From Corynebacterium sp. Marseille-P3884 (GTDB lineage: Bacteria > Actinomycetota > Actinomycetes > Mycobacteriales > Mycobacteriaceae): a stretch of 46,307 nucleotides of DNA. The stretch is taken from contig NZ_JAGKSD010000018.1 in the NCBI RefSeq assembly GCF_017942225.1, forward strand, positions 1 through 46,307. The letters are read 5' to 3'. Below, one piece after another: positions 2,198 to 46,307 of this stretch. The translations under genes were made by a program, and so were the position numbers. How positions within the stretch are numbered: position 1 is the first letter of the stretch; each line of letters begins with the position of its first letter. The notes under the pieces were generated by a model. It was not told the DNA's origin and made no database searches. It saw only the letters and a program-made list of their open reading frames with translations.

Positions 2198-2908
2198 ATG
2201 AGCGAGAAGAAGATTGCAGTAGTCACCGGCGGTTCCGCAGGCATCGGGGCGGCAGCGGCACGGGCATTGGCTGACGACGGCTACACCGTCTACGTCTGCG
2301 CCCGCCGCAAAGAGCTGTGCGAGAAGATCGCCGGCGAGATCGGCGGTGTGGGGGTGGAGCTGGATGTGACGGAGCAGGGGAGCGTCGATAAGCTTGCCGC
2401 GCAGCTTGAGCGCGTCGACGTGCTGGTCAACAACGCGGGAGGCGCGAAAGGGCTCGACCCGCTGCGCGAGGCCAAGCCCGAGGATTGGGACTGGATGTAC
2501 CAGACGAATGTGCTGGGCACCGTGCGCGTGACCAAGGCGCTCTACCCGGCGCTCGTCGCGGCGGAAGGCCTGGTCATCAACGTCGGCTCCGTCGCCGGGT
2601 GGGACGCCTACGTCGGCGGGTCTGGCTACAACGCGGCCAAATTCGGCCTGCGCGCGCTCACCCGCGCTTTCCGGCGCGAGGAGGTCGACGCCCCCATCCG
2701 CATCACCGAGATCGACCCCGGCCGCGTGAAGACCGACTTCGCCTTCAACCGCTTCGGCGATGAGGCGCGCGCGGCGGAAGTCTACGACGGCAAGCTCAAC
2801 CTGACCGCCGAGGACATCGCGGAGGCGATCCGGTGGGTGGCATCCCTGCCGCCGCACGTGAATATCGACACGATGAATATCATGCCGCGCGACCAGGCGG
2901 AACGTTAG
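2198..2908 (+). CDS. Short-chain dehydrogenase/reductase (NAD(P)-dependent)
   Basis: A 236-aa classical SDR beginning MSEKKIAVVTGGSAGIG. The glycine-rich dinucleotide loop TGGSAGIG is at residues 9-16, NNAGG follows near residue 76, and the catalytic Ser, Tyr and Lys are in VGSVAGWDAYVGGSGYNAAKFG. The length is normal for the family. The likely relatives are the YdfG/serine-dehydrogenase-like oxidoreductases, but the substrate is not deducible. A longer open frame extends upstream, but the ATG at 2198 sits behind a good -10 box and directly precedes the nucleotide-binding fold. The stop codon overlaps the GTG start of the LysE gene by one base, so the two are probably co-transcribed and translationally coupled. 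Confidence 0.9.
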   Translation: MSEKKIAVVTGGSAGIGAAAARALADDGYTVYVCARRKELCEKIAGEIGGVGVELDVTEQGSVDKLAAQLERVDVLVNNAGGAKGLDPLREAKPEDWDWMYQTNVLGTVRVTKALYPALVAAEGLVINVGSVAGWDAYVGGSGYNAAKFGLRALTRAFRREEVDAPIRITEIDPGRVKTDFAFNRFGDEARAAEVYDGKLNLTAEDIAEAIRWVASLPPHVNIDTMNIMPRDQAER

Positions 2909-3579
2909 TGGCGACCGGTCAGCTACTGGCGCTTGTCGGCGTCTGGGTCGCCGCGATTGCCAGCCCCGGCCCCGACATCGTCCAGATCGCGCGCCTCGGG
3001 GTGAAGTCGCGGGCGGCCGGAGTGGCGTGCGCCGTCGGAATCATGGTGGGCAACACCTTCTGGATTGCCGCCTCGCTGCTCGGCTTAAGCGCACTCATCC
3101 AGGCCGTGCCCCAGATCCTCGCTGTACTCCAACTCGTCGGCGGGGCGTACCTGCTGTGGATGGGCATCGGTGCTGTTCGTGCCGGGTTCGCCGTGAGGAA
3201 GGAAGCAGCGAACGATGGCACAGCCGGCGACACGGACGCGGTCGCAGCTGCCGACGTTCCGTCCTCCGCAGCCCTGCCGACCAGCACGGCTTTCCGCATC
3301 GGCGTGGCCACGAACCTGGCCAACCCGAAGGCGGTGCTGTTCTTCGGGGCGGTGTTCGCTCAGTTCGTCACACCCGGCATGGGGTGGGAGTGGATGCTGG
3401 TCATCCTGCTCACGCTGGTGGTGATCGGGGTGGCGTGGTTCGTGGGGTTCGCGGTGCTCGTCGATAAGTTCGCGGGCTTTCTGGACCGCCACGGGCATGT
3501 GGTCGACGTGGTCACGGGCGTGATCTTTGTGGCGTTGGCGGTGTGGATGCTCGTAGAGGGCGCTACGAGTCTGCTTTGA
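2908..3579 (+). CDS. LysE/RhtB-family amino-acid exporter
   Basis: A 223-aa membrane protein with about six hydrophobic segments. The family signature SPGPD occurs near residue 20 and the second conserved stretch NLANPKAVLFFGAVFAQF lies in the C-terminal half. Members export amino acids or related metabolites across the cytoplasmic membrane; the substrate is unknown. A hydrophilic, Ala/Asp-rich loop of about 30 residues after RKEAANDG separates the two halves and should be cytoplasmic. The GTG start overlaps the TAG of the dehydrogenase gene (TAGTG). The same frame stays open further upstream inside the dehydrogenase gene, but the overlap start fits the family N-terminus (ATGQLLALVGVW). Confidence 0.9.
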   Translation: MATGQLLALVGVWVAAIASPGPDIVQIARLGVKSRAAGVACAVGIMVGNTFWIAASLLGLSALIQAVPQILAVLQLVGGAYLLWMGIGAVRAGFAVRKEAANDGTAGDTDAVAAADVPSSAALPTSTAFRIGVATNLANPKAVLFFGAVFAQFVTPGMGWEWMLVILLTLVVIGVAWFVGFAVLVDKFAGFLDRHGHVVDVVTGVIFVALAVWMLVEGATSLL

Positions 3580-3606
3580 GTCGGAGACACCGTCGGTGTG
3601 CCGCGC

Positions 3607-3612
3607 TAGCAT
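3607..3612 (+). promoter_or_regulatory. -10 box of the YbjQ-like gene (TAGCAT)
   Basis: TAGCAT ends 7 nt before the ATG at 3620; leaderless arrangement. Confidence 0.5.
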
Positions 3613-3619
3613 TGCGTTC

Positions 3620-3940
3620 ATGATCCTCACTACCACGCAGACAGTTGAAGGCCGGACAATCACGGAATACATGCGCATCATCGGTGGCGAAACGATCACC
3701 GGCATGAACATGTTCAAGGACATCGGCGCGGGTTTCCGCAATATGGTGGGCGGTCGCGCGAGCTCCTGGGAGCAGGAGTTGATCCAGGCGCGCGACAGTG
3801 CGCTCAACGAGCTGTGGGAGCGCGCACGCCAGATCGGGGCGGACGCGGTCATTGGCGTTGAGCTGGACTATTCGCCGATGGGTGCGGATGGTTCGATGAT
3901 GCTCGTCGCAGCGACGGGCACCGCGGTTCGGCTCGACTAG
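3620..3940 (+). CDS. YbjQ/UPF0145-family protein
   Basis: A 106-aa protein. Residues 1-40 read MILTTTQTVEGRTITEYMRIIGGETITG, and the C-terminal part contains ALNELWERARQIGADAVIGVELDY, the hallmark of the UPF0145/YbjQ heavy-metal-binding-like family, which forms small pentameric beta-rich rings. The function is unknown. It has no signal peptide. The start is set by the -10 box 7 nt upstream; an earlier in-frame start would overlap that box. Confidence 0.87.
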   Translation: MILTTTQTVEGRTITEYMRIIGGETITGMNMFKDIGAGFRNMVGGRASSWEQELIQARDSALNELWERARQIGADAVIGVELDYSPMGADGSMMLVAATGTAVRLD

Positions 3941-3963
3941 CGGCGAGCTGCTTACATAGAGGC

Positions 3964-4251
3964 ATGGATGTAAGCATCAGCGGTGGCAGCATCAAGCTGG
4001 GCCAGTTCCTCAAGCTCGCGAATCTCGCGGAAACAGGTGGCCACGCGAAAGAGCTCGTTTCTTCGGGGGAGGTCGCGGTCAATGGCGAGGTCGTCACCTC
4101 GCGGGGGCATGAGCTTATCGACGGCGACGTGGTCTCCATTCCCTCCGCCTCCCTCAATGCCACTGTGGTGGCGGACGGCGGCGGGGATGATTATTTCGAC
4201 GAGCGCACCGCCAACGACGATTTCGACCCGGAGAAGTGGAGGAATCTCTAA
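3964..4251 (+). CDS. S4-domain RNA-binding protein (YbcJ/YaaA-like)
   Basis: A 95-aa protein whose first ~65 residues form an S4 fold: SIKLGQFLKLANLAETGGHAKELVSSGEVAVNGEVVTSRGHEL. It resembles the small stand-alone S4 proteins YbcJ and YaaA, which bind structured RNA. The C-terminal 25 residues are acidic (GGGDDYFDERTANDDFDPEKWRNL). Only 3 nt separate its stop from the VOC gene, so the two form an operon. The start has no good ribosome-binding site, and a weak TACATA hexamer lies 5 nt upstream. Confidence 0.85.
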   Translation: MDVSISGGSIKLGQFLKLANLAETGGHAKELVSSGEVAVNGEVVTSRGHELIDGDVVSIPSASLNATVVADGGGDDYFDERTANDDFDPEKWRNL

Positions 4252-4254
4252 CCC

Positions 4255-5034
4255 ATGCCCGCTTTCGAAGCCCGCGAGGGCATGCCGTACTGGATTGACC
4301 TACTCACCTCGGAGACGAGGAAGTCGGCGTATTTCTACTCCCGGATTCTCGGCTGGGATGTCGCAGAGGGCGATTACCGCATCGCACGGCTGCAGAATAT
4401 GCCGGTGGCAGGCATGGTGCCGCAAGAGGACATGCCGGACGCGTGGGTGACGTATTTCCTGTCCACCGATATCGAGCGCGACGCCCAGCGCGTGGGCGAG
4501 CTCGGTGGCTGGGTGCTGGCGCAGCCGCAGCAAGTGTCCTTGGGCACGATGGCGCTGTGCGCGGATGATCAAGGGGGCTGGTTCGGCCTGTACCAGCCGG
4601 AAGGGGAAGATTCCTTCGTCGCGGCCGGTGAGCCGGGGACGCCGGTGTGGCATGAATATACGTGTACGGGGGACGTCGATAAGCTTGCGCGTTTTTATGG
4701 CGAGCTGTTCGACTGGAACATCGTCGAAAACGACGGCTACCTGCTGGCCATGCAGGACGGCGCGGCATTCGCCGGGATCTGGGACGCGCGCGAGCAGATT
4801 CCCGCGGATGTGCCGAGCTTTTGGCGCTCATATCTGGGCGTGGCCAACATCGCGGAGACGCGCAGCCGCATCGAAGAATTCGGTGGCGAGGTGCTGCGCG
4901 GCCCGGAGAATTCGCCGTTCGGGCTGCTGCTGACCGCCGCGGATTCGACCGGCGCGGTGGTGACGTTGTGCGAGGTCGACGAACCCGTCGACGAAGAGAC
5001 CCTCGACGAAGGCGATTCGATCCTGCACCTGTAG
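4255..5034 (+). CDS. Two-domain VOC-family protein (glyoxalase/CFP30B-like)
   Basis: A 259-aa protein made of two tandem vicinal-oxygen-chelate domains. Domain 1 starts GMPYWIDLLTSETRKSAYFYSRILGWDV and domain 2 starts TPVWHEYTCTGDVDKLARFYGELFDWNI; each ends with the family's DxxGxxxxL-type strand (DDQGGWFGLYQPEG and DSTGAVVTLCEV). The layout matches the mycobacterial 27-kDa antigen CFP30B family. VOC proteins are often metal-dependent lyases or dioxygenases, but many of this subgroup have no assigned reaction. It is co-transcribed with the S4 gene. Confidence 0.85.
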   Translation: MPAFEAREGMPYWIDLLTSETRKSAYFYSRILGWDVAEGDYRIARLQNMPVAGMVPQEDMPDAWVTYFLSTDIERDAQRVGELGGWVLAQPQQVSLGTMALCADDQGGWFGLYQPEGEDSFVAAGEPGTPVWHEYTCTGDVDKLARFYGELFDWNIVENDGYLLAMQDGAAFAGIWDAREQIPADVPSFWRSYLGVANIAETRSRIEEFGGEVLRGPENSPFGLLLTAADSTGAVVTLCEVDEPVDEETLDEGDSILHL

Positions 5035-5064
5035 CTTGGATTCCGCAGTGTGTGAGTTGCGGTG

Positions 5065-5925: not shown

Positions 5926-6729
5926 TTATGCCCGGAGGCGGTCCGCGATATCGCGGACGATTCGCCGGTACTCCTCCGGCGTGGCGATGATCCCGCAGGT
6001 TCCCGGGTGCCCGATGGCGGCCGCGGAATAATCGGGGGAGGGCTCGACGAGCGCAGCCGCGCTGACCAGCGCAATCCCGTCCGGCGCCTCGTGCTGTTTT
6101 GCGATGATCGCGGTGGTTGCCGGCTGCTGCTTTGCGACGACATCCAGTACCGCAGCGACATCGCCGTCCCGCTGCGGGTCGGGAAGGTCGATGATGGTGG
6201 TGCCCGACAGTTGGGCGATCGCCGCGATCAGCGGGCGCCAGTGGTGCTCGACAGCGCGGGGCCCGAAGCCGGGGTTGAGCGAGACAGCCCAGCGGCCGAC
6301 GCTGGTGTCCGTGGGCACGAACACGCGGGCACCCAGCTCGGGCAATTCGGGTAGCTCGCGTGCGTCGACATCCATGCCGTAGGCGACACCGGGCATCGTG
6401 TGGTCCAAGCCTGAACCGAGCATGAGCATCGCTGCGTGCGTGAGGCGGTCCGGCAGCGCGGCGAGGTAGCGGTCGAGAGCGTCGTCGTCCGCCGGCACCG
6501 GGTAGCTGTTCTCCATGTAGGAGACGAGCTGCGCCAATTGCTCCGCCGGCGGGAGCGAGCGTTCCACACCGCCGACCTGGAAGTCCTCGAGGTGCTGTTC
6601 GTTGACTGGGTAGGCGGCGTCGGTTTCGCCGGCAGGCAGGGGCGCGTCAGGTTCGACGGGCTCCGGGACGTGGCGCATGCGCGCCTGCGCGGCGGCGAAA
6701 TCGGGGGAGTGGTCGGGGGAAACTGTCAC
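5926..6729 (-). CDS. Unknown 267-aa protein coupled to the M13 peptidase gene
   Basis: I do not recognise the family with confidence. The N-terminal ~65 residues are Pro-, Glu- and Asp-rich and probably disordered. The remainder looks like an alpha/beta fold, with strands such as RWAVSLNPGF, GTTIIDLPD, ATTAIIAKQ and GIALVSAAALV, and it ends with a basic helix (EEYRRIVRDIADRLRA). An alpha/beta-hydrolase-like fold is possible, but no nucleophile-elbow motif is evident. No signal peptide or membrane segment is seen. Its ATG overlaps the stop of the upstream peptidase gene by 4 nt, which suggests translational coupling. Confidence 0.75.
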   Translation of the reverse strand: MTVSPDHSPDFAAAQARMRHVPEPVEPDAPLPAGETDAAYPVNEQHLEDFQVGGVERSLPPAEQLAQLVSYMENSYPVPADDDALDRYLAALPDRLTHAAMLMLGSGLDHTMPGVAYGMDVDARELPELPELGARVFVPTDTSVGRWAVSLNPGFGPRAVEHHWRPLIAAIAQLSGTTIIDLPDPQRDGDVAAVLDVVAKQQPATTAIIAKQHEAPDGIALVSAAALVEPSPDYSAAAIGHPGTCGIIATPEEYRRIVRDIADRLRA

Positions 6730-8654
6730 CAGATCACCACGCGGTCATCCGGGGCGACCCACATCTGGGAGTCTTCGTCCACATCGGGGAATGCCTCGTA
6801 GAACTCGGCGATATTGCCGGCGATGACATTGCAGCGGAACTCGGCGGGCGAGTGCGGGTCGATGGCCAGGTACTGTTCCGCCATCTCAGGGCGGATCGCG
6901 GTGCGCCAGATGCGGGACCAGGACAAAAATAGGCGCTGCAGGCCGGTGAATTCTTTCCCGTCCAGTTCCTTCGAGGAGCCGTCGGTGTCGAAGGGGAGGG
7001 CGGGGCCGTCGTCAAGCTGCTTGTCTTTGAGGTAGTTCTTGTACGCGACGACGGCGATGCCGAGTCCGCCCAGGTCGCCGATGTTCTCGCCCAGGGTGAA
7101 TTCGCCGTTGACGCCGGCGGTCTCGCGGCCTTCGAGGACGTGCGGGACGAGGCCGTTGTACTGGTCGACCAGCTTGCTCGTCAGCTCTTCGAAGCGGGCG
7201 CGGTCGTCGTCGGTCCACCAGGAGTTGAGGTTGCCGGCGCCGTCGTAACGCGAGCCCTGGTCGTCGAAGCCGTGGCCGATCTCGTGGCCGATGACGGCGC
7301 CGATCGCCCCGAAATTCTCCGCGGGGTCAGCGTCGATGTCGAAGAACGGCGGGCGCAGGATCGCGGCGGGGAACGTGATGTCGTTGACCACCGGGTTGTA
7401 GAACGCGTTGACGGTCTGCGGGGTGGTCACCCACTCGTCGCGGTCGGCGGGCTTGCCGATCTTGGCCACCTGGTAGTCGTGCTCGAATTCGGCGCCCGCG
7501 CGCACGTTGGCGACGAGATCGGCGCCGCTGCGGGAGAAGTCGAGGCCGTCGTAGGAGCGCCATGTGTCGGGATAACCGATTTTCGCGCGGAATTGCGAGA
7601 GCTTCTCCAGCGCGCGCTCGCGGGTGGCGGGCGACATCCACGCGAGCTCGCTGATGCGCTCGCGGTAGGCGGCGACAAGGTAGTCGACGAGCTTCAGCAT
7701 TTCGTCCTTGGCTTCCGGGGAGAAGTGCTTATCGACGAACACCTTGCCCATATCTTCCCCCACCAGCGATTCTGCGAGGGCGATGCCGCGCTTCCACCTG
7801 TCGCGCTGCTGCGTCGCGCCGGACAGCGCGGTGCCGTAGAACTCAAAATTGGCGGCGCCGACCTCCTCCGGCAGCACGCCGGCGCGGGAGATGAGAATGT
7901 GCCATGTCGCCCACAGCTGCCAGTCCGGCAGGGTCTCGGGGCGGAGCATCGCCGCCAGCTCCACGGTGTAGGAGGGCATCATGTCGATGACGCGGCCGTC
8001 GGAAAGCCCGGAGCCGCGCAGCAGCGTCTGGATGATGGCGGGCAGGTCGCTCAGCTGCTTCGGGTTGTATGTCTTCACTGCGTCGCGGCTGGCCACGACA
8101 TCCCAGTGGCTGTGCGCGATCTGCTTCTCTGTCTCCACGATGCGCTGTGCGGCGGTGGCCGCGCTGAGTCCGAACAGGCGCGACGGGTCGAGGAAGCCGA
8201 GCATGCGCTCGACGTGGGCGCGGTACTTCTTCAGTGTCTCGGCGTGCGCCGGGTCGCGGTAGTACGCCTCGTCCGGCAGGCCCAGGCCCGACTGGACCAG
8301 GTACGGGACTGCTTCGTCTCCCTCGGAATCCTTTTCCACCCAGTAGGCCAACGGGCCGGAGATGCCGCGGCGGTCGAGTGCGCCCAGGTTACGGGCGAGT
8401 TCTTCGATGTCGGCGACGCTGAGGAGGGCGAAATCGTCATCAAGCGGGCTCATTCCTGCTGCGTTGATCGCGTCAATGTCCATGAACGCCGCGTACAGGT
8501 CACTCGCGCGGCCTGTACCTTCCTTGACGAGTTCGTGCACATCCTCCTCGGCCCTGTCGCGCAGGCCGTGGAAGGTGCCGTCCACACCGCGGTCATCGGG
8601 GATGACGTGGCTTTCCAGCCAGGGTCCGTTCACAAGTCGGTAAAGGTCCTTCAT
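6726..8654 (-). CDS. pepO: M13-family zinc metallopeptidase (PepO-like)
   Basis: A 642-aa member of the neprilysin/PepO family. The zinc motif HEIGH is at residues 457-461, the third zinc ligand Glu is in ENIGDLGG near residue 523, and NAFYNP lies upstream as in the family substrate-binding NAFY motif. Unlike eukaryotic neprilysins it has no N-terminal membrane anchor or signal peptide, so it should be a cytoplasmic endopeptidase cleaving short peptides. The length is normal for bacterial PepO. The ATG at 8654 is preceded at 8 nt by TACAGT. The gene overlaps the downstream unknown gene by 4 nt. The symbol is by family resemblance. Confidence 0.93.
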   Translation of the reverse strand: MKDLYRLVNGPWLESHVIPDDRGVDGTFHGLRDRAEEDVHELVKEGTGRASDLYAAFMDIDAINAAGMSPLDDDFALLSVADIEELARNLGALDRRGISGPLAYWVEKDSEGDEAVPYLVQSGLGLPDEAYYRDPAHAETLKKYRAHVERMLGFLDPSRLFGLSAATAAQRIVETEKQIAHSHWDVVASRDAVKTYNPKQLSDLPAIIQTLLRGSGLSDGRVIDMMPSYTVELAAMLRPETLPDWQLWATWHILISRAGVLPEEVGAANFEFYGTALSGATQQRDRWKRGIALAESLVGEDMGKVFVDKHFSPEAKDEMLKLVDYLVAAYRERISELAWMSPATRERALEKLSQFRAKIGYPDTWRSYDGLDFSRSGADLVANVRAGAEFEHDYQVAKIGKPADRDEWVTTPQTVNAFYNPVVNDITFPAAILRPPFFDIDADPAENFGAIGAVIGHEIGHGFDDQGSRYDGAGNLNSWWTDDDRARFEELTSKLVDQYNGLVPHVLEGRETAGVNGEFTLGENIGDLGGLGIAVVAYKNYLKDKQLDDGPALPFDTDGSSKELDGKEFTGLQRLFLSWSRIWRTAIRPEMAEQYLAIDPHSPAEFRCNVIAGNIAEFYEAFPDVDEDSQMWVAPDDRVVIW

Positions 8655-8722: not shown

Positions 8723-11700
8723 CTAGTCCTTCTTCTCGTACGGGTCGCGAATCTTCATGTCGGACTGCTTCCACAAGCCGGAGCGGGTGATCTCCTCGTG
8801 GTTGATCTCAGCCTCAGCGGGTGCCTCGCCCTTCGAGTTGGTGCGCAGCACGTAGCGGTAGGCCGAACCCCAGTCGCGGTGCCAGTCCTGGTCGAGGTAG
8901 CCCGGCATCTCGTAGGCAGAGTTCACGGCCTCGGCGGTAGACATCGCGCCGCCGCCCATGAAGTCCTGGAAACCGCTGAGCTGCTCCTTGCCAGGGGCGT
9001 CCGGAGCCACGCGGAACTGCGGGATCTCCGTAACACCGGCGTAGTGGTTGAACGTGCGGTGGCACGGGAACTGCAGCGCGACCGGCCAGTCGAGCAGACC
9101 CGGGGTCTCCGAATCGAAGACGTCGGTGATGTGCTCGAGCTTCGGGTTGCGCAGCGGGGTCAGCGCCATCCACTCGTATGGGTCGAGGTTCAAGTCCTCG
9201 CCCACCAAGCGCACGACGTTCGCGCCCTCCGGCAAGTCCGAGATGGGGTAGCGGAGGTTGCGCCACTTAACGCGCGGGCCCGGATCCATCATCTCCACCT
9301 CGCCGATGTCGGTGACGGAGCCGCCCTCATTGCGGGTGCCGTACTCGAGCTTGATGGTCTGGCCTTCCTTCTCCTCGCCGTTGATGTCGTGGTGCGCCAG
9401 GCGGCCGGCAACGGAGGTGACCAGCAGCGGCGCTTCCTCGGTGGCTTCCGGCAGCTCGAACCAGGACGTGGTGATCTCGGAGGAGGACTGGGCCTCTTCA
9501 TCAAAGGTGCCCAGCACCGGGATGCGGTTGTAGTCCAGGTTGAACGGAAGGCGCACCGTAGAGCCGTTGATGCCGATCTGGTCCTCGGAACGGTTGCCCT
9601 GGGTGCCGGCGCGGCTGGTGGACTGGACGGTGTCGGAGGTGACGTCGTCGCCCTTGGTGTTCGAGCCGGTGGCGGTGTCGGTGCCCGTGCTGGTTCCGGT
9701 GCTGGCGTTCGAGTCTGAACTGTCGGCATTCGCCGCATTCGCCGAGCCCGTAGCAGTGCCTGCACCCGTGTCGGCGTTTGCGGCCGGGTCGTTGCCGATG
9801 GCGCCGACGCTCGCCGAGCCTTCGTTGTCCGAGTCGATGTAGGCGGGCACACCTTCGGGGTGGAAGCCGCGGACAGTGCCGGATTCGAGCGAGGATCCGA
9901 GTGGGACGCCGTCGACGGGAGTGAGGAAGGAGTCGTTGGTGTTGGTCTCCAGCAGAACATCACTGCTGAGCTGGCAGGTATTGCCCTTCAAGGAGCGGAC
10001 GTTGCCCATGCCGACGGAGTAGGCGGGTGCCTGGTCAATAAAGGACTTGGTGAAGGTCAGGCATGAAAACGCCACGATCAAGATGGAGGCAACGGCAATG
10101 GGTGCGGTCATGGCGGTGCGGAAGCGGGAGCCTTCTGCGGCCTCCGCAGCCTCGAATTCCTCGACTCGGCCGGCTTCTTCGGCTTCGGCACGGCGCTGGT
10201 TGTAGCGCAGGGACTGGACAACACCGACGATCACGGTGATCAAGCACAGCGCCAGCATGACCGAGCTGGCTTCGACGCCCTTGAGCTGGACGGTCTTGTC
10301 CCACCATGGGACGGCGAACGAGGAGACGTACCACCATGCGTTCCAACCGGCCAGCGAGAGCGCCATGAGGAACATGACGGCTGCGAGCGCGAAAGTGCGC
10401 GCGCGGGCGGACTGCGCGGCGATCTGGGCCAGCACGACAGCGCCGAGAGCAGCTGCGGCGCCGGCGAGGCCCGCGTAAATGCCGAAGTGGTGGGTCCACT
10501 TCGTCGGGGTGAACATGAGGAAGAACATGGACAGCGCGAAGATCGCGAGCATGCGCTTCGTCGGGGCCTTTTCCGCGCCCTGCACGCTGCCGAAGCGGGA
10601 CATGCTCCACAGCACCAAGCCCAGGCAGAACAGCAACGTGAACATTGCGTATCGACGAGTCAGCGACCCGTCCACCGCCGCCTCAAAGAGCGTGGAGTAG
10701 CGGACGTACTCGTTGAACCACTCCAGTGCAGGGCCGACCTCCGAACGGACAGATGTGGCCTCCAGCACCGCCGCGAGTGTCTGGTCGTGGAAGACCGGGA
10801 TCATCACTGCGAAGCCCAAGCCGAGGAACGGCAGGACGAATGCTCCCTGAGGAGCGATCGAGGTGCGCTCGCGCACGATGCGCAGCAGATGCGGCAGGCA
10901 CACCAGGAAGACGCCGACGGCGGTCAAGCCAGTCGGTCCGCACGCCAGAGTGAAGGCCGCGAAGACAGTGCCGAACGCGGCGGGCAAAAGGCGTCGCGAA
11001 GCGATGGCGCTTTCAAAGGATGCCCAGGTGACAATCGTGCCGAGAGCGATGACCGGCTCTGGGCGCAGACCGTTGTCGTACGGCATCCAAAACGCCAGGA
11101 ACATGAACGCGGCGGTCCAGTACGCCACGCGCCGGGTGGCAATGGACGCGCCTAGCCGCGGCAGGATCTCGCGGGAGAGCACCCACCAGATGGCGATGCC
11201 GGACAGCAGCGTCGGAATGCGCATCCACGCCGAGGCGGTGCTGACCTTCGCCAGAAGCGACAGCAGGTTGTAGAACGGAGCGCCGAACGGCGATTCAGGA
11301 ACGCCGTACCAGCGGTAGTAATTGGCCATGTAGTCCGAGTCGTTGGCCACGCGCGCCATGGTGAGCAAGAAGCCGTCGTCGGAGGTGTTCGCACCGAAGA
11401 AGTGCCAGAACAGCAGCAGACCGACGACCACGGCGTCGAGAGGCTTGAAGGAACGCCATTCCGGGCGCAGCGGACGCAGACGCTTGCCGTCCAGCAGGTC
11501 GAGGCGCGCCAAGGACCACAGAGCCACGATCGCGGACAAGGTGCCGCCGATCATGGCCAGCCACTTCACTGCGGTGGGCTCAGAGGTGAAGCGGGAATTG
11601 ATGTCGACGTGGGCGGAAAGGCCGGCGTCGATAAGCTCTTGCGCCTGCTCTTCCGAAAGCTCGCTGTAGATGCCTGTGAGCTGGGGACGCATGTCTTCGT

Positions 11701-14318: not shown

Positions 14319-15083
14319 TTAGAAGCTCAAGCGGCGCATGATCGGCGCCGGGATGTGCTGCAGCACGAGCGAGATCGGCCCGAAGAGCTTGTGCACGAAC
14401 ACGTTCGGCTTGCCAGCAAGCGCGGCGTTCACAGCAGCTTTCGCCACATCTTGCTTATCGACGGTCAACGGCGCCTCATCCAGCCCCTGCGTCATCTTCG
14501 TGCGGACCTGACCCGGACGGACGACGGTGACCGTCACACCTGAATCGCGCAGCGCTTCGCCGAGCTGGGTGTAAAAGCCGTCCATGCCCGCTTTGGTCGC
14601 GCCGTAGACGAAATTCGAGCGGCGCACCTTCATGCCCGCCACCGAGCTCATCGCGATGATGCGGCCGTGGCCCTGCTCCTTGAGCTTCTGGCCCAGCAGC
14701 ACGCCCACCGAGACCGGAGCGGTGAAGTTCGTCTGCGCGGAGGCGACCGCCGCCTCCTGGTTCTGCCAGAGTTCTTCCTGGTCGCCCAGGGTGCCGAATG
14801 CCACGATGGCCACGTCCACGTCGCCGTGCGCGAAGGCCTCCTCGATGACGGCCGGGTGGGACGCGGTGTCGAAAGCGTCGAAGTCGATCACGCGCACCTC
14901 GCCGGCGCCGTGGCTGGTGACCTCTTCCACGGCGGCGTCGATACGCGGGCTGTTCTTGCGTGCCGCGAGCGTGACTGTCGGGGAGCCGCCGCGCGATGCG
15001 ATCTCGTCGACAATCGCGAGACCGATCTCGCTCGTGCCGCCGAGAAGAAGAATGTTCTGTGCCTGTCCAACTGCGTTGAGCAT
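14319..15083 (-). CDS. dprE2: Decaprenylphosphoryl-2-keto-ribose reductase DprE2
   Basis: A 254-aa SDR-fold reductase that works with DprE1 to epimerise decaprenyl-phospho-ribose to decaprenyl-phospho-arabinose, the sole arabinose donor for the wall. The NAD(P) loop GGTSEIG is at residues 15-21. The catalytic triad region reads AMSSVAGMKVRRSNFVYGATKAG, and VRPGQVRTKMT follows as in SDRs. There is no signal peptide. The C-terminal hydrophobic ending FGPISLVLQHIPAPIM may associate with the membrane. It lies 33 nt downstream of dprE1. One copy of the GTCGATAAG core word encodes its TVDKQ segment. Confidence 0.94.
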   Translation of the reverse strand: MLNAVGQAQNILLLGGTSEIGLAIVDEIASRGGSPTVTLAARKNSPRIDAAVEEVTSHGAGEVRVIDFDAFDTASHPAVIEEAFAHGDVDVAIVAFGTLGDQEELWQNQEAAVASAQTNFTAPVSVGVLLGQKLKEQGHGRIIAMSSVAGMKVRRSNFVYGATKAGMDGFYTQLGEALRDSGVTVTVVRPGQVRTKMTQGLDEAPLTVDKQDVAKAAVNAALAGKPNVFVHKLFGPISLVLQHIPAPIMRRLSF

Positions 15084-24094: not shown

Positions 24095-24128
24095 TAAAGT
24101 GGGTGAGTCGCAATTGCTTTGCGACGAA
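24095..24128 (+). promoter_or_regulatory. Promoter and leader hairpin of tRNA-Ser(TGA)
   Basis: TAAAGT at 24095-24100 is a likely -10 (a TTGGCA at 24069 is 20 nt upstream, a long spacing). Between it and the tRNA lies a 7-bp hairpin, GTCGCAA/TTGCGAC, which would form the 5' leader removed by RNase P. Confidence 0.4.
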
Positions 24129-36949: not shown

Positions 36950-37867
36950 ATGTCTCACTCACAACCTTCAGCCGGCCGTTATGCACCGAGCCCGAGTGGG
37001 GATCTCCACTTCGGCAATTTACGCACGGCGGTGCTCGCGTGGTTGTTTGCGCGTCAGTCGGGCCGCAAGTTCTACATGCGCGTGGAGGACATTGATTCGG
37101 AGCGTTCCAGCATGGAATCGGCCCGCCGCCAGCTCGAGGATCTCGCGGCGCTGGGCGTCGAGTGGGATGAGCCGGTCGTCTACCAGCACGAGCGCGGCGA
37201 TGCGTACGCGTCGGCGCTGGCCACGCTCGACACGTATGAATGTTATTGCTCCCGCCGCGATATCCGGGAGGCGGCTTCCGCGCCCCACGCGCAGCCGGGC
37301 ATGTACCCGAGCACGTGCCGCGACCTCACGGAAGAGCAGCGCGCTTATCGACGATCCCAGCTCGCCGACCACGGCCGCCTCCCCGCGATCCGCCTGCGTG
37401 CCCATGCCCGTGAGTGGACTGTGTCCGATTACTACAAAGGCGAATTCACCGGCCCCGTCGACGACGTGATTCTCAAGCGCGGCGGCAACCTGAACCAGGC
37501 ACAAGCGGGGGATTGGGCCTACAACCTCGCCGTGGTGGTCGATGACGGGTTCCAGAATGTCGACCAGATCGTCCGTGGAGATGATCTTCTGGAATCAGCG
37601 CCCGCGCAGGCGTACCTCGCCGACCAACTCGGCCTGCCCCAGCCGACCTACGTTCATGTTCCGCTCGTGATAAATGCCCAAGGAAACCGTTTGGCGAAGC
37701 GCGACGGCGCGGTCACTTTGCGGGACATGTTGGCTCACCGAACTATCGCAGAAATTGTCGAGCAGCTCTCCGCCTCAGTCGGTGTCGCGGGCGCCACCAG
37801 CGCGGATGAGTTGATGCAGAAATTCACGCCGGAAATGCTTTCCTGCGAGCCATTTTTGTGGACATGA
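36950..37867 (+). CDS. gluQ: Glutamyl-queuosine tRNA(Asp) synthetase GluQRS
   Basis: A 305-aa paralogue of the catalytic half of glutamyl-tRNA synthetase without an anticodon-binding domain. The HIGH-like motif is [10 protein letters not shown] at the N-terminus. The zinc-binding site is intact: CYC and YPSTC, in ECYCSRRDI...MYPSTCRDL. The KMSKS-like loop is [11 protein letters not shown]. GluQRS activates glutamate and attaches it to the cyclopentenediol of queuosine-34 in tRNA-Asp, so its presence implies that queuosine is made or salvaged in this organism. The start at 36950 follows a TATCAT box by 7 nt; an upstream extension of the frame runs into yhhQ and is rejected. Confidence 0.94.
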
Positions 37868-38588: not shown

Positions 38589-39860
38589 ATGTCCCTGCTC
38601 AATCTGGACGCCGCTGCCCGCGAGGAACTCGCGACGAAGGTGCGCGAGGAATACGAAACGCTCAAGGCCCGCAACCTGGACTTGGACCTGACGCGCGGTA
38701 AGCCGTCGTCGGAGCAACTCGACCTCAGCAACGACCTGCTTGAGCTGCCGGGCAAGGGCAACTACGTGGATGCCGCCGGCACGGATGTGCGCAACTACGG
38801 CAACCTCAAGGGCATCAAGGACATCAGGGAGATCTGGGGCGAGCTCATCGGGGTGCCGGTGGACAACCTCTATGCGGAGGATTCGTCCTCGCTGAACATC
38901 ATGTTCGACCTGATCAGCTGGTCCTTCATCTTCGGAAACAACGACTCGGAACGCCCGTGGCGCGAAGAAGAGACCGTGAAGTGGATCTGCCCGGTCCCGG
39001 GCTACGACCGCCACTTCGCCATCTCGGAGAAGTTCGGCTTCGAGATGGTCACCGTGCCCATGCTTGACGACGGCCCCGATGTCGATGCCGTCGCCGAGCT
39101 GGTCAAGGATCCGGCGGTGAAGGGCATGTGGGTCGTGCCGATGTTCGCCAACCCGTCTGGTGTGACTGCGACTGAGGAGGTCGTGCGCGCACTCGCATCG
39201 ATGGAGACCGCCGCGCCGGATTTCCGCATCGTGTGGGACAACGCCTATGCCGTGCACACCTTCACCGAGGACTTCCCGCAGATCATCGACGTGCTCGGTG
39301 CGGCTGAAAAGGCCGGCAACCCGAACCGCTTCTGGGTGATGAGCTCCACCTCCAAGATCACGCACGCGGGCGCGGGCGTGGCCTTCTTCGCGTCGTCGAC
39401 GGAGAACCTGGACTGGTACGCCTCCATCGCTGGGATCCGCGGTATCGGCCCGAACAAGATCAACCAGCTGGCCCATGCAAAGCTCTTCGGTGACGCCGAC
39501 GGTGTGCGCGCCCTGATGCAAAAGCACGCGCAGATCCTCAAGCCGAAATTCGACGCTGTGCTGGAGATCCTTGAGGGTCGCCTCGGCGAGTACGAGGTCG
39601 CGCGCTGGACGACTCCGGCCGGCGGCTACTTCGTCTCCCTCGACGTCATTGACGGCACGGCCACCCGCGTGTGGGAGCTCGCCCGCGAAGCCGGCATCAC
39701 CCTGACCAAGGCCGGTTCTGCTTTCCCGAAGGGCGAGGACCCGAACGACCGCAATATCCGTCTCGCGCCGTCGCTTCCGCCTCTCGACGAAGTCCGTACC
39801 GCTATGGACGGTGTCGCCACCTGCGTGCTGCTCGCGGCACTGGAGAAGCTCGAGAACTAG
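38589..39860 (+). CDS. aspT: Aspartate aminotransferase AspT (class If)
   Basis: A 423-aa PLP aminotransferase of the corynebacterial AspT subgroup. Near the N-terminus is LDLDLTRGKPSSEQLDLSNDLLELPGKG. ICPVPGYDRHF and VVPMFANPSGVTA are followed by the Asp/Tyr block IVWDNAYAVH. The PLP lysine is in SSTSKITHAGAGV, and the C-terminus has RLAPSLPP. It interconverts aspartate and oxaloacetate with glutamate, supplying nitrogen for the aspartate family. The ATG at 38589 is preferred over GTG 38577, which lies within the ribosome-binding site AAGGAAG (38571-38577). A TAATCT box at 38538-38543 suggests a ~40-nt leader. Confidence 0.94.
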   Translation: MSLLNLDAAAREELATKVREEYETLKARNLDLDLTRGKPSSEQLDLSNDLLELPGKGNYVDAAGTDVRNYGNLKGIKDIREIWGELIGVPVDNLYAEDSSSLNIMFDLISWSFIFGNNDSERPWREEETVKWICPVPGYDRHFAISEKFGFEMVTVPMLDDGPDVDAVAELVKDPAVKGMWVVPMFANPSGVTATEEVVRALASMETAAPDFRIVWDNAYAVHTFTEDFPQIIDVLGAAEKAGNPNRFWVMSSTSKITHAGAGVAFFASSTENLDWYASIAGIRGIGPNKINQLAHAKLFGDADGVRALMQKHAQILKPKFDAVLEILEGRLGEYEVARWTTPAGGYFVSLDVIDGTATRVWELAREAGITLTKAGSAFPKGEDPNDRNIRLAPSLPPLDEVRTAMDGVATCVLLAALEKLEN

Positions 39861-40458: not shown

Positions 40459-41087
40459 TCGGACAGGTACATCAAGATTGCACGGACGCGGCGGTTCTCC
40501 TCGTCGGGCGTGAGCCCTAGTTTCGAGAAAATAGCAGAGACGTGCTTGGCCACAGCGGCGCCAGAGAAATAGAGCTTCTCCGCGATCTCGGCGTTGGATA
40601 GTCCTTCGGCCATGAGCTCGAGCACTTCACGTTCGCGCGGGGTGAGCGTGGTCAGCCACTGGGAGCTGGCCGCCATGAGCTCGCTGGCTACATCTGGGTC
40701 GATGACAACGCCACCGGATGCGACGGTCTCGCAAGCCTGAACGAAATCCTTCACCTCGGCGACGCGGTCTTTGAGCAGGTAACCGGTGCCGCCGTGGCCG
40801 CCGGAGAAGAGCTCGCGGGCATAGGCAGGGGCGACGTACTGCGACAGCACGAGCACATTCACTGGGCCGGTTTCGCGCAGCTTGAGTGCAGCCTGGAGGC
40901 CGTCGTCACGCATGTTCGGAGGCATGCGCACATCGGTGATCACGAGGTCGGGAGCATGCTTATCGACGGCACCCGGCAGCGCGTCCGCATCCCCCACCTG
41001 CTCCACCACCTCGTGGCCCCGCCGGGTGAGCAGACCCGCGACACCTTCGCGCAGCAGTGCCGAATCATCGGCGATTACGATCTTCAT
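40443..41087 (-). CDS. LuxR/NarL-type response regulator
   Basis: A 214-aa regulator. The receiver domain (residues 1-120) has the acidic pair D7-D8 and phosphoacceptor D52 in VITDVRMPP, with the conserved Lys in GYLLKD. The C-terminal HTH (residues ~145-210) reads LTPREREVLELMAEGLSNAEIAEKLYFSGAAVAKHVSAIFSKLGL. It should be phosphorylated by the kinase encoded immediately upstream (4-nt overlap) and probably binds the 20-bp palindrome at 41778-41797 to control the divergent ABC transporter. It resembles the Actinobacteria-type NarL regulators of ABC exporters such as ChrA/HrrA, but the target here is unknown. Confidence 0.92.
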   Translation of the reverse strand: MKIVIADDSALLREGVAGLLTRRGHEVVEQVGDADALPGAVDKHAPDLVITDVRMPPNMRDDGLQAALKLRETGPVNVLVLSQYVAPAYARELFSGGHGGTGYLLKDRVAEVKDFVQACETVASGGVVIDPDVASELMAASSQWLTTLTPREREVLELMAEGLSNAEIAEKLYFSGAAVAKHVSAIFSKLGLTPDEENRRVRAILMYLSERGIT

Positions 41088-41761
41088 TGCGCTAACCCAC
41101 TTTCTCCTCGGTACAGCAATAACGGTATCCGTGCGGTGATGGTGGTGGGGCCGCCTTGGGGTGAATTGAGCTCGATCGACCCACCGAACGCGGCAATGCG
41201 CTCGCGCATCCCGTCGAGCCCACCACCAGGCACAATGTGGGCACCGCCGTTTCCGGAGTCGGTGACAGCGACGTTGAGGGTCGCATCGGAGGTGATGAGC
41301 ACGCTGACGGGGGCGCCGGGCGCGTGCTTCGCGGCGTTGGTCAGGGCTTCGGAGGTGAAGAAATAGGCGGCGGCGAGGACGGAGTCGTCGATAAGCGGTA
41401 AATCGTGCGGTGCGCGGACGGTGACGTGCGGGCCGTACTGCGCGGCGGCTGTCTCGACGGCTTCGACGAGCCCGCGGTCGGTCAGCTCGCGCGGGTGGAT
41501 GCCGCGCACGGTGCGGCGCAGGGCGTCGAGGCCGTTTTTGAGGTCGCGGGCGGCGGCGTCGAGAAGCGGCGAGTCTGTTTCAAGCTGCGCTTCGCCGAGC
41601 TTCATCGCGGCTGCCACGAAATATTGCTGCGCGCCGTCGTGCAGGTCGCGCTCGATGCGGAGCCGTTCGACCTCGTACGCTTCGGCGATCTTCCGCCTGG
41701 ATGCCGTCAGCTCGTGGATCGCGCGTGCTGCTTCAGCCTCGTGGTTCTTCTTCCGCCACAT
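41084..41761 (-). CDS. Short soluble histidine kinase (HisKA_3 type, no sensor domain)
   Basis: A 225-aa kinase. The phosphoacceptor H41 is in RIERDLHDGAQQYFV (the HisKA_3 signature). The ATP-binding N-box reads SEALTNAAKHA, the G1 box is VAVTDSGNGGAHIV, and the second glycine box is GGGLDGMRERIAAFGG. There are only about 25 charged residues before the dimerisation helix: no transmembrane segment and no PAS, GAF or HAMP region. The open frame has no credible upstream start that adds a sensor. The ATG follows TACCCT by 7 nt. It likely takes its signal from a partner, possibly the divergent ABC transporter. Confidence 0.88.
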   Translation of the reverse strand: MWRKKNHEAEAARAIHELTASRRKIAEAYEVERLRIERDLHDGAQQYFVAAAMKLGEAQLETDSPLLDAAARDLKNGLDALRRTVRGIHPRELTDRGLVEAVETAAAQYGPHVTVRAPHDLPLIDDSVLAAAYFFTSEALTNAAKHAPGAPVSVLITSDATLNVAVTDSGNGGAHIVPGGGLDGMRERIAAFGGSIELNSPQGGPTTITARIPLLLYRGESGLAQ

Positions 41762-41853: not shown

Positions 41854-42534
41854 ATGCTCGAACTGAACGACATCACGAAATCATTCACCCAGCAACGGGT
41901 TCTCGAAGGAATCAGCCTGGACATCGGCCCCGGCGAATCCGTCGCCATCATGGGCCCGTCCGGCTCCGGCAAATCGACGCTGCTGCACTGCATGTCAGGA
42001 GTGCTCGTGCCCGACCACGGCGAGGTCCGCTTCAACGGGCGCGACATCGCATCGCTTGACGACGCCACCCGCTCCCAGCTCCGCCTCGACCACTTCGGCT
42101 TCATCTTCCAGGACGGGCAGCTCATGCCCGAACTGACTGCAAAGGAGAACGTGGCTCTGCCGCAGATCATGCGTGGCGAATCACGCTCGAAGGCCCACGC
42201 GGAGGCCACGGACATGCTCACGCGGCTGGGGCTGGGCGCGTTTGTGGATCGCTTCCCGGGCCAGCTTTCCGGCGGGCAGGGCCAGCGCGTCGCGATCGCC
42301 CGCGCCTTGGCTGGGCCGCCGTCGGTGGTCTTCGCCGACGAGCCGACTGCCGCACTCGACCAGGCCACCGGCCATGAGGTGATGCAGCAGATCACGGCGG
42401 TGTCGAAGAAATTCGGTGTGACGCTCGTGCTGGTCACCCACGACCCGAAGATTGCGCAGTGGTGCGACCGTCGGATCGAGATTCGTGACGGTCTCATTCA
42501 CGCTGAGGGCCCGAGCAAGGTGATGCCGGCATGA
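41854..42534 (+). CDS. ABC transporter ATPase (MacB/LolD/BceA type)
   Basis: A 226-aa ATPase. Walker A is MGPSGSGKSTLLHCMSG near residue 33, and the Q-loop is in FGFIFQDGQLMPELTAKENVALP. The signature is LSGGQGQRVAIARALAGPP, Walker B is VVFADEPTAALD, and the H-loop is LVTHDPKIA. This subgroup works with FtsX-like permeases that move lipids, peptides or haem rather than classic nutrients. It overlaps the permease gene by 4 nt. The -10 is not clear; TGAAAT lies 7 nt before the ATG but lacks the conserved A, as would suit an activator-dependent promoter. Confidence 0.93.
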   Translation: MLELNDITKSFTQQRVLEGISLDIGPGESVAIMGPSGSGKSTLLHCMSGVLVPDHGEVRFNGRDIASLDDATRSQLRLDHFGFIFQDGQLMPELTAKENVALPQIMRGESRSKAHAEATDMLTRLGLGAFVDRFPGQLSGGQGQRVAIARALAGPPSVVFADEPTAALDQATGHEVMQQITAVSKKFGVTLVLVTHDPKIAQWCDRRIEIRDGLIHAEGPSKVMPA

Positions 42535-43925: not shown

Positions 43926-43947
43926 CTTCTAGAAGCTGCGGCTAGTG

Positions 43948-43962: not shown

Positions 43963-43963
43963 A

Positions 43964-45025: not shown

Positions 45026-45029
45026 GTGA

Positions 45030-45038
45030 ATACTGTAT
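45030..45038. promoter_or_regulatory. -10 box and palindrome of the RHH gene
   Basis: The minus-strand -10 TACAGT (45032-45037) is embedded in the palindrome ATACTGTAT (45030-45038), a plausible self-operator. Confidence 0.45.
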
Positions 45039-45106
45039 AACGAAAATATCTGCGCTGGCAATGCCCACTTGCAGGCTGACCCACGGTGGGTGTCGCGGGC
45101 GCCTAG

Positions 45107-45112
45107 TAGGGT
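45107..45112 (+). promoter_or_regulatory. -10 box of dnaX (TAGGGT)
   Basis: TAGGGT ends 6 nt before the GTG at 45119; no ribosome-binding site is present. Confidence 0.5.
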
Positions 45113-45118
45113 GAAACC

Positions 45119-46307
45119 GTGGCTTTGTACCGGAAGTATCGCCCAGCCTCGTTCGCCGAGATGATTGGGCAGGAGCAGGTGACGCGCCCGCTGTCCACAG
45201 CGCTGGATAACGGGCGGGTCAACCACGCTTATTTGTTCTCGGGGCCGAGGGGAACGGGCAAGACGTCGTCGGCACGCATTCTGGCGCGCTCGCTGAATTG
45301 CGTTCAGGGGCCGACATCGACGCCGTGCGGGGTGTGCCCGTCGTGCGTCGCGCTCGCGCCGGGCGGGCCGGGCAACCTGGACGTCACGGAGATGGACGCC
45401 GCGTCGAACGGCGGTGTCGACGAAATGCGTGAGCTGCGCGAACGCGCGTATTTCGCGCCGGCAGAATCGCGCTACCGCGTGTTCATCATCGACGAGGCCC
45501 ACATGATCACGGGCGCGGGCGCGAACGCCCTGCTGAAGATCGTGGAGGAGCCGCCGGAGCACCTCGTGTTCATTTTCGCGACGACGGAGCCGGAGAAAAT
45601 CATCGGCACGATCCGTTCGCGCACGCACCACTACCCATTCCGTCTGCTCACGCCGCAGGCGATGCGCCAGCTCGTCGAGCGCACGGTCGCCGCGGAAGGT
45701 GTCACGGTCGACGAGAACGTCTACCCGCTGGTCATCCGCGCCGGCGGCGGTTCCCCGCGCGACACCCTGTCCATCCTCGACCAGCTGCTCGCAGGAGCCG
45801 GCCCCGAGGGCTTGACGTACGAGCTCGCGTTGCCGCTTCTCGGGGTTACGGACCTTTCGCTTATCGACGCCACCGTGGACGCCCTTTCCTCCCGCGACGC
45901 CTCCGCCCTGTTCCAGGCCGTCGACGACGTGATTGAGGCCGGCCACGAGCCCCGCCGTTTCGCGATCGACCTGCTCGACCGCCTACGCGATTTGATGATC
46001 ATTCACGCCGTCCCGGACGCCTTCGGCCAGGGACTCGTGGATGCCCCTGCCGACCGTGCGGAGATTCTTACCGCCGAGGCTGACAAATTCCCCGGCAACC
46101 AGCTCGCCGCGCTTGCCACTGAGGTAAACGAGCGCATCACCTCCCTGCGCGGCGCGACCTCCCCGCGCCTGCTGCTGGAGATCATGATGGCGCACCTCCT
46201 TGGTGTTCTCACCGGCACGCAGGCACCTGCCGCCGTCGCCGGTCTCACTGAGCTCCAGGACGCCTCCGCCGAGGCCGCCGGCATGGGTGACAAGCCCCGC
46301 GGCGCCG
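45119..46307 (+). CDS. dnaX: DNA polymerase III subunit gamma/tau (N-terminal part)
   Basis: The first ~396 codons of DnaX; the gene continues past the right edge. It starts MALYRKYRPASFAEMIGQEQV. Walker A is GPRGTGKTSSARILARSLNC near residue 45, a zinc module has CGVCPSC, Walker B/DExx is VFIIDEAHM, sensor 1 is FATTEPEK, and the arginine-finger SRC-like segment is SRTHHYPFR. DnaX forms the clamp-loader core and holds polymerase cores together. Being next to aspT is the usual corynebacterial order, here separated by a two-component/ABC module and toxin-antitoxin genes. The GTG start is supported by the -10 box. Confidence 0.95.
   Translation, partial: MALYRKYRPASFAEMIGQEQVTRPLSTALDNGRVNHAYLFSGPRGTGKTSSARILARSLNCVQGPTSTPCGVCPSCVALAPGGPGNLDVTEMDAASNGGVDEMRELRERAYFAPAESRYRVFIIDEAHMITGAGANALLKIVEEPPEHLVFIFATTEPEKIIGTIRSRTHHYPFRLLTPQAMRQLVERTVAAEGVTVDENVYPLVIRAGGGSPRDTLSILDQLLAGAGPEGLTYELALPLLGVTDLSLIDATVDALSSRDASALFQAVDDVIEAGHEPRRFAIDLLDRLRDLMIIHAVPDAFGQGLVDAPADRAEILTAEADKFPGNQLAALATEVNERITSLRGATSPRLLLEIMMAHLLGVLTGTQAPAAVAGLTELQDASAEAAGMGDKPRGA

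Follow-up and report, generated by a model that had tools for sequence, protein, structure and literature searches.

Why should a single decamer recur throughout a 46,307-nucleotide stretch of the genome of Corynebacterium sp. Marseille-P3884 (the whole stretch is referred to here as the window)? The preliminary description reported 19 copies, 18 of them as the same 10-mer and in both orientations, where about 0.1 would be expected by chance. Recounting gave 18 exact copies of GCTTATCGAC plus one of ACTTATCGAC (9 on the plus and 10 on the minus strand), and an order-3 Markov model put the expectation for the window at 0.116, both strands included. With at most one mismatch to the decamer there were 31 matches, against a mean of 2.4 and a maximum of 7 in 100 shuffles. 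The over-representation is real, and larger than first stated. The copies had been assigned to 19 different genes and, with two exceptions, to frames reading L-I-D or V-D-K. With ORFs chosen mechanically for frame and gene assignment, 16 of the 18 decamers fell inside 16 different ORFs and two lay outside any chosen ORF, so that the figure of 19 genes is not fully borne out by this mechanical choice. Most of the 16 did read L-I-D (8) or V-D-K (5), the copies in other frames numbering three rather than two.

All 18 decamers extend to GCTTATCGACG, and the decamer is one spelling, the commonest (NN = AT), of GCTTNNCGACG, which occurs 37 times in the window (reversed control, 2). The full word is bipartite, GCTT-NN-CGACG-N-C. 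The GCTTATCGACG copies, recovered by both the decamer and the GCTTNNCGACG searches, are on the plus strand at 4113..4123 (frame same1), 7727..7737 (within a peptidase M13 gene), 14453..14463 (outside the chosen ORFs), 23270..23280, 30737..30747, 31188..31198, 37343..37353 (within a class I tRNA-synthetase-like gene, non-LID frame), 40958..40968, and 45859..45869, and on the minus strand at 2383..2393 (V-D-K frame), 4674..4684 (outside the chosen ORFs), 11626..11636 (within an emb-type arabinosyltransferase gene), 14182..14192 (within an aftA-type gene, non-LID frame), 18298..18308, 25808..25818, 26831..26841, 33361..33371 (within an MMPL-family gene), and 41386..41396. ACTTATCGAC, a variant at the first base, was found by the decamer search at 3460..3469 (minus). 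The GCTTNNCGACG search added GCTTCTCGACG at 462..472 (minus), 1032..1042 (plus), 27925..27935 (plus), and 41557..41567 (minus); GCTTTGCGACG at 6129..6139 and 24116..24126 (both plus); GCTTGACGACG at 7007..7017 (minus), 39062..39072 (plus), and 42054..42064 (plus); GCTTTCCGACG at 7997..8007 (minus); GCTTCGCGACG at 10992..11002 (minus); GCTTGCCGACG at 17282..17292 (plus), 17548..17558 (plus), and 22653..22663 (minus); GCTTGTCGACG at 20398..20408 (plus); GCTTTTCGACG at 25828..25838 (plus), which forms an inverted pair with the copy at 25808..25818, and at 34120..34130 (plus); and GCTTGGCGACG at 28657..28667 (plus) and 35014..35024 (minus). Letters 5 and 6 of the word are free and differ between species, while C at position 13 was present at 51 of 54 sites in one genome (G004) and 59 of 61 in another (G006). 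No strongly conserved flanking sequence was found beyond 13 bp. The flanks are not AT-rich, and the downstream one shows a weak preference for C at every third position, which may reflect codon structure.

The genome-wide count was nowhere near the Markov expectation. The 2.40-Mb source genome holds 682 copies of GCTTATCGAC and only 4 (2 + 2 by strand) of the reversed word; for GCTTNNCGACG the corresponding figures were 1,535 copies and 84 for the reversed control. A majority of the copies sit in L-I-D- and V-D-K-type frames, as would be the case if codon-pair bias for these tripeptides, or conserved peptides, made the word. However, within-gene synonymous shuffling of 404 kb of ORFs (60 shuffles) yielded a mean of 15.6 and a maximum of 26 copies of GCTTNTCGACG, compared with 186 observed, and frames other than LID and VDK contained 48 copies where the synonymous shuffles predicted 1.0. 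Copies are found in each of the six frames and also outside genes, where they make up their expected share (21 of 207 copies, 17.6 expected by length) and so show no intergenic preference. In addition, GCTTNTCGACG was not enriched in any of 24 genomes from the order's other families (0.5 to 1.8 times the control). The leucine of L-I-D had been noted as CTT although CTG and CTC dominate, and this was borne out, CTT accounting for 72 of 101 such codons and for 1,440 of 12,303 leucine codons overall. The codon-pair or peptide explanation is refuted by the synonymous shuffles and the frame distribution and retains almost no probability. The excess acts, as had been proposed, through DNA and not through protein or codon choice.

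Within the genus, GCTTNNCGACG exceeded its reversed control at least 3-fold in 173 of 242 Corynebacterium genomes, and most of the 242 hold scattered copies of the word, roughly a hundred to almost two thousand per genome. A 22-kb locus of the environmental strain Corynebacterium lubricantis DSM 45231 has 6 copies of GCTTNTCGACG. The sites turn over between species: in one helicase gene compared across 45 genomes, 47 sites were spread over 17 alignment positions. The distribution is genus-limited, with sites changing from species to species. Dispersed copies this numerous might be what is left of a mobile element or of some interspersed repeat that multiplied through transposition or gene conversion, uptake playing no part. 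Such elements, however, do not spread as single-letter differences at aligned positions in conserved genes, and the copies share no strong conservation past 13 bp, making this origin extremely unlikely.

Some lineages spell the word with one letter changed throughout the genome. Seventeen genomes, at four places on one tree, use GCTTNNCGATG instead, with 159 to 1,184 copies in these 17 of the 74 genomes tested and 32 to 142 in the others. In 32 kb of aligned sequence in all, comparison of the related genomes G004 (C spelling) and G006 (T spelling) identified 18 aligned sites. At 10 of these, C10T was the sole difference in the fixed letters; 1 was unchanged, and 7 were lost. Eight further genomes carry a possible third word, TYCGACGCCA, perhaps a more distant dialect, and 37 genomes have none of the three words. 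There is, in sum, one word with clade-specific dialects, replaced site by site. Because C and T within a CG step separate the two dialects, deamination of a methylated C10, or more generally a methyltransferase or a repair bias, could be invoked for the difference. Yet a mutational bias would not produce hundreds of sites with nine fixed letters that enclose two free ones, and outside the word CGACG had become CGATG in 14 of 106 cases. Nor is the T dialect decay, since copy number in T genomes such as G006 (about 1,000) matches that in C-dialect genomes. In addition, at some T sites of G006 the aligned sequence is unrelated, two against G004 (at the ComEC locus) and three against G005, although gain and loss are unpolarized in these comparisons. 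We thus consider a mutational or modification effect highly unlikely.

Some sequence-specific reader is needed for an asymmetric word that has dialects and is spread evenly over the genome, and this could be an intracellular protein that organizes, segregates, or repairs the chromosome (nucleoid-associated, Chi-, KOPS-, or MatP-like). A change in the specificity of such a protein would also explain the dialects. The orientation of Chi- and KOPS-type sites follows the direction of replication. The decamer, in contrast, has no strand bias in the source genome (330 and 352 copies by strand), no replichore bias was seen across 20 stretches round the chromosome of G008 (69 plus, 74 minus), and the strand z score over the 173 enriched genomes averaged -0.01 (SD, 0.79). 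Polar sites are ruled out on these grounds, in agreement with the argument from strand balance made in the preliminary description. No gradient between origin and terminus was apparent by eye in the same 20 stretches, and the missing intergenic preference likewise speaks against a chromosomal protein. GCTTNNCGACG is asymmetric and not palindromic. The core of the DnaA box is TTATNCACA, and a resemblance to it had been pointed out. This reading is unsupported because the letters that make the resemblance (the AT in GCTT-AT-CGAC) are the variable letters 5 and 6, and a DnaA box was discarded accordingly. Taken together, these data render an intracellular reader unlikely. An apparent one-strand run of the word in G029 looks like an artefact of the order in which sites are given (plus before minus within a contig), the totals in that genome being 203 and 236.

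Three readings had been offered at the outset: an uptake sequence, a binding site of a chromosome-organizing or repair protein, or a motif spread by gene conversion. The first fits best, given the lack of polarity, the dialects, and the turnover, and the chromosomal protein is less likely. In copy number, DNA-level excess, absence of polarity, turnover, and dialects, the word matches DNA uptake sequences. As judged from these genomic patterns, GCTT-NN-CGAYG-N-C is quite probably a Corynebacterium DNA uptake sequence, spread by biased import and having dialects. It would act as a self-recognition tag preferred by a surface DNA receptor during uptake, the candidate receptor likely being part of a Tad/Flp pilus and ComEA/ComEC transformation machinery. 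Fragments that carry the tag would be imported and recombined more frequently than others, and this biased import (molecular drive) would multiply and maintain copies at any position that the encoded protein can accommodate. Were the receptor's specificity to change, a new spelling would be favored and the genome rewritten, giving rise to the dialects CGACG, CGATG, and perhaps TYCGACGCCA. A broader scenario seems to us moderately probable, namely, sequence-specific sex in Corynebacterium, with a Gram-positive uptake code that is read by a novel receptor on a competence pilus of Tad/Flp type. The spelling of this code would have been switched genome-wide at least three times, and gene exchange among species would now be hindered or helped by their dialects.

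The uptake signal sequence (USS) of Pasteurellaceae has a 9-bp core, about one copy per 1 to 2 kb, and subtypes that differ in a few letters. The Corynebacterium word is of the same kind in core length, density, and few-letter subtypes, but its letters are different, its flanks are not AT-rich, and it has instead the weak C periodicity downstream. In Neisseria and Haemophilus, inverted pairs are frequent as terminators; inverted pairs of the word were sought here and were not enriched. The HIP1 octamer of cyanobacteria, a palindrome whose role is disputed, is likewise very frequent genome-wide, whereas the Corynebacterium word is asymmetric and dialects replace it site by site. The Neisseriaceae DUS, beside which the Pasteurellaceae USS is mentioned, is described in the available text of PMC3630211 as a word of about 10 bp present in thousands of copies per genome, with dialects conserved per species and following the species tree. 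The two systems are alike in their short word, genome-wide copies, and dialects. They differ in that the Corynebacterium word is unrelated and bipartite with two free central letters, belongs to Actinobacteria rather than Betaproteobacteria, and lacks the excess of inverted pairs.

A machinery that could read such a tag is widespread in the genus. ComEC was present in 61 of 61 genomes and in 19 of 20 of a further set, tblastn detected ComEA in 37 of 37, and 235 of 242 genomes had TadA over the cut-off. Of 58 locus sets, 56 contained a match to each of TadB, TadC, Flp, TadE, and TadG. Another actinobacterium, Micrococcus luteus, possesses a comparable set of genes (comEA, comEC, and tad with Flp and TadE/G) and transforms by a Flp/Tad pilus, the tad genes being needed for transformation (available text of PMC4322843 and PMC6370729). 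Genomes that lack the word have ComEC and Tad genes just as often, so these genes do not distinguish the two groups. When 11 T genomes were compared with up to 25 C genomes, the dialects were not split by any conserved column of ComEA, ComEC, TadB, TadC, TadE, TadG, or Flp. Machinery loss is dismissed as the cause of word loss in G006 and G014, since both have ComEA, ComEC, and tad genes; G006 uses the other dialect, and neither the C, the T, nor the third word is enriched in G014. Among the seven genomes without TadA over the cut-off, six are word rich (G021, G199, G200, G218, G226, and G231). These six are multicontig drafts in which the absence possibly reflects gaps. The T-dialect genome G214, which is 90 percent complete, gave no ComEC match; in the word-rich G001 (1,618 copies) the ComEC domain is split into two pieces; and in the source genome itself (G000) TadA lies at a contig end, the tad operon beyond it not being seen.

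The literature search, conducted outside bioRxiv and most subscription journals, gave, among the matches listed, no description of the word and none of an uptake sequence in Corynebacterium; of 44 papers matching the letters of the word, the 20 listed were unrelated by title. Natural transformation of a Corynebacterium was not reported in the literature searched, including the available text of PMC12519793. The main text of PMC4322843, as available, mentions neither "uptake sequence" nor Corynebacterium; that of PMC11651106 does not mention competence or natural transformation, and that of PMC5217627 gives, for three Corynebacterium genomes, nothing beyond spaced motifs related to CRISPR. In the papers cited, uptake sequences are described for Neisseriaceae and Pasteurellaceae. 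If the uptake reading is true, Corynebacterium would be an independent, high-GC Gram-positive case, and the trait would evolve repeatedly without being tied to Gram-negative type IVa pili. Natural competence would be predicted in a genus where the literature searched has no report of it, and placing the word on donor DNA would provide a genetics tool. Relatives whose genomes differ site by site in one letter would constitute a natural experiment on genome-wide code rewriting and its reader protein.

The spacing of the word is slightly even (CV, 0.85), with 7 pairs at most 60 bp apart where 14.6 were expected. In four plasmids (124 kb), taken irrespective of host dialect, there were 1 copy of GCTTNNCGACG and 7 of GCTTNNCGATG, and this scarcity is accordingly weak evidence. 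Long word-free gaps are no commoner than under a Poisson distribution, and the two longest word-free stretches (8.1 and 7.4 kb) are of low G+C content, the 7.4-kb one holding an IS3-type element.

The decamer GCTTATCGAC occurs as 18 exact copies in the window, together with one ACTTATCGAC, 9 copies being on the forward and 10 on the reverse strand. All 18 decamers continue to GCTTATCGACG, and an order-3 Markov model of the window predicts 0.116 decamers over both strands. The copy number, strand split, and expectation of about 0.1 in the preliminary description were thus reproduced. Its claim that the copies lie in different genes held for 16 of the 18 decamers, which a mechanical ORF choice places in 16 distinct ORFs; the other two are outside the chosen ORFs. 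Among these 16, L-I-D (8 decamers) and V-D-K (5 decamers) predominated as described, with three in other frames instead of two. Pfam matches were found in 7 of 10 window ORFs scanned, including emb- and aftA-type arabinosyltransferases, an M13 peptidase, an MMPL protein, and a tRNA-synthetase-like protein. Genome-wide (G000; 2,403,595 bases, 32 contigs, of which the window is contig 9), GCTTATCGAC is present in 330 + 352 copies, versus 2 + 2 for the reversed control, i.e., the word read backwards.

In a 446-kb sample of G000, one-change neighbours of GCTTATCGACG are in excess mainly at position 5 and less so at positions 1, 3, and 6. In G008, a single-contig chromosome, GCTTCTCGACG (49 copies) almost equals GCTTATCGACG (60 copies). 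Across the enriched genomes compared, letters 5 and 6 depend on the species (AT, CT, GC, GT, and others) and GCTT and CGA-G are constant. Position 13 is C at 221 of 346 sites in G000, 200/251 in G008, 51/54 in G004, and 59/61 in G006 (two further genomes), C being the top letter in each frame class having at least nine sites. The word is therefore GCTT-NN-CGAYG-N-C. A bipartite spelling with free central letters, GCTTNNCGACG, was counted 37 times in the window (2 reversed) and 1535 times in G000 (84 reversed). The G000 and G008 samples also show a weak preference for C at each third position 3′ of the word, exceeding that upstream, which may reflect codon structure or belong to the sequence that is recognised.

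The excess of the word is at the DNA level. When synonymous codons were shuffled within each gene, preserving protein and codon usage, 60 shuffles of G000 gave a mean of 15.6 and a maximum of 26 copies of GCTTNTCGACG, versus 186 observed; in G008, the mean was 8.4 and the maximum 15, versus 128 observed. Outside the LID and VDK frames, 48 copies were observed in G000 versus 1.0 expected, and 21 of 207 sites lie outside ORFs, versus 17.6 expected from length. The unusual leucine codon noticed at the outset was borne out, CTT being used in 72 of 101 LID cases and in 1440 of 12303 leucine codons overall.

The word is without polarity. Strand z-scores over 173 enriched genomes have a mean of -0.01 and a standard deviation of 0.79, and 20 stretches spaced round the G008 chromosome hold 69 forward and 74 reverse copies of GCTTNTCGACG, with no density gradient discernible by eye. 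Spacing is slightly more regular than random (gap coefficient of variation, 0.85 in G000 and 0.87 in G008). Pairs at most 60 bp apart are rarer than expected (7 versus 14.6 in G000; 6 versus 8.4 in G008), and inverted, terminator-like pairs are therefore no feature of the word. Long word-free gaps are not in excess over a Poisson process; the longest two, of 8.1 and 7.4 kb in a total of 482 kb, are both G+C-poor, and the 7.4-kb stretch holds an IS3-family element (L008; G000 contig 1, ~37.6-39.0 kb).

Overall, the data reveal a real, genus-wide word with dialects. GCTTNNCGACG reaches at least 3 times the control in 173 of 242 Corynebacterium genomes (115 to 1964 copies; median ratio, 16) and 1.7 to 3 times in 8, the ratio being lower in the remaining 61. 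For all 24 genomes sampled from other families of the order, GCTTNTCGACG counts lie between 0.5 and 1.8 times those of the reversed control. The same spelling occurs in the helicase-gene loci of C. lipophiloflavum, glaucum, riegelii, lubricantis, senegalense, pollutisoli, stercoris, pilosum, and others, and was found neither in that of C. phocae nor in those of Glutamicibacter, Arthrobacter, and Brevibacterium. Within the helicase gene, 45 genomes carry 47 GCTTNNCGACG sites at 17 alignment positions; ten positions are each occupied in one genome only and one is common to 12 genomes, so sites have been gained and lost and some are old.

A four-gene tree places G006 as sister to G004 and G005, and G006 has only 20 copies of GCTTNTCGACG, versus 276 and 263. 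A de novo word search in 208 kb of G006 recovered GCTTGCCGATG and relatives. GCTTNYCGATGC is present 428 times in G006, 33 times in G004, 40 times in G005, and 2 to 50 times in 34 other genomes of the genus. This T dialect has a CGATG core, versus CGACG in the C dialect. Among 74 genomes (61 low, 8 intermediate, and 5 for comparison), GCTTNNCGATG numbers 159 to 1184 copies in 17 and 32 to 142 in the others; the T-dialect genomes thus comprise 16 from the low group and one from the intermediate group. In a tree of 47 genomes (ComEC, ComEA, TadB, and TadC; read by eye), including 11 of the 17, the T dialect appears at four places, one nested within a C group, so that at least three changes are needed. 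The 17 genomes, from several lineages, form a natural comparison set for a reader protein (for G006, stretches L061, L062, and L170-L176).

The G004-G006 alignment (32,420 columns, 78.6 percent identical) shows the replacement site by site. Of 18 G004 GCTTNNCGACG sites with an aligned G006 counterpart, 10 differ by C10 to T alone at fixed positions, 1 is unchanged, and 7 are lost. Eight of the ten changes are synonymous, one replaces an amino acid, and one is outside ORFs. Of 106 CGACG outside the word, 14 read CGATG in G006 and 24 are unchanged. Recognition has apparently shifted at one letter, with the genome changing to match. At the ComEC locus, G006 T sites face unrelated sequence in G004 (2) and G005 (3), through either gain in G006 or loss in G004/G005.

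A third word, TYCGACGCCA, emerged from de novo searches of G010 and G015. In a count that left out the 8 intermediate genomes, eight of the 61 low genomes had 101 to 338 copies, and the other 66 genomes counted had at most 73, save two of other genera (101 and 83 copies; 8.9 and 7.0 Mb). It shares only the 3′ half of the main word, so kinship is tentative. T-rich sequence precedes it in G010, G015, and G033 (L053, L054, L057-L060, and L184-L198); the G033 stretches also hold the long over-represented words TGGAGCACCCGG, TAGTCGTGCGCC, and CCAGCAGCTCCG, perhaps interspersed repeats. After all three counts, 7 genomes are word-weak and 37 are without any of the words. One of the latter, G014, sits amid enriched genomes and has comEA, comEC, and tad genes, which would fit either a fourth dialect or lost selectivity.

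To our knowledge, no uptake sequence is known in any Gram-positive genus, and the literature matches listed included none for Corynebacterium. The word is best read as an uptake sequence, and we class it as DUS-like rather than as a proven DUS. Its features match those of the DNA uptake sequences of Neisseriaceae (PMC3630211), whose dialects are constant within a species, track the phylogeny, and restrict transformation between species. Four Corynebacterium plasmid stretches (124 kb), whose host dialects may differ, hold 1 GCTTNNCGACG, 7 GCTTNNCGATG, and no TYCGACGCCA, versus ~79 GCTTNNCGACG predicted from the G000 density, no more than a hint that plasmids may be without the tag.

The word may act through the ComEA/ComEC/Tad machinery. 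In the actinobacterium Micrococcus luteus, according to PMC4322843 and PMC6370729, transformation requires tad genes for Flp pili and the genome has comEA and comEC without a comG cluster, tad plus comEA/EC being described as frequent in actinobacteria; Corynebacterium has the same kind of gene set. ComEC was found in all 61 genomes of the order that were searched and in 19 of a second set of 20 (G006 belongs to both), ComEA in 37 of 37 by tblastn, and TadA above the cut-off in 235 of 242, six of the other seven being word-rich drafts. Of 58 locus sets, 56 gave matches to each of TadB, TadC, Flp (DUF4244), a TadE-like, and a TadE/G-like (PF13400) protein, although some matches are weak (e.g., Flp of G028); the exceptions, G000 and G021, arise because the sequence retrieved stops at the operon or does not include it. 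The machinery is present in genomes both with and without the word, and no conserved residue tracked dialect in seven candidate proteins. G001 has 1618 copies despite a ComEC Competence domain spread over two frames (G001:C4:524862-525658), a split that could reflect either recent loss or faulty assembly. A conserved ITDALSNTP-like Flp pilin end is usual in GCTT-word genomes, G144, G008, G026, and G019 deviating, and the tail differs in genomes of the other clade, a difference that could be phylogeny only.
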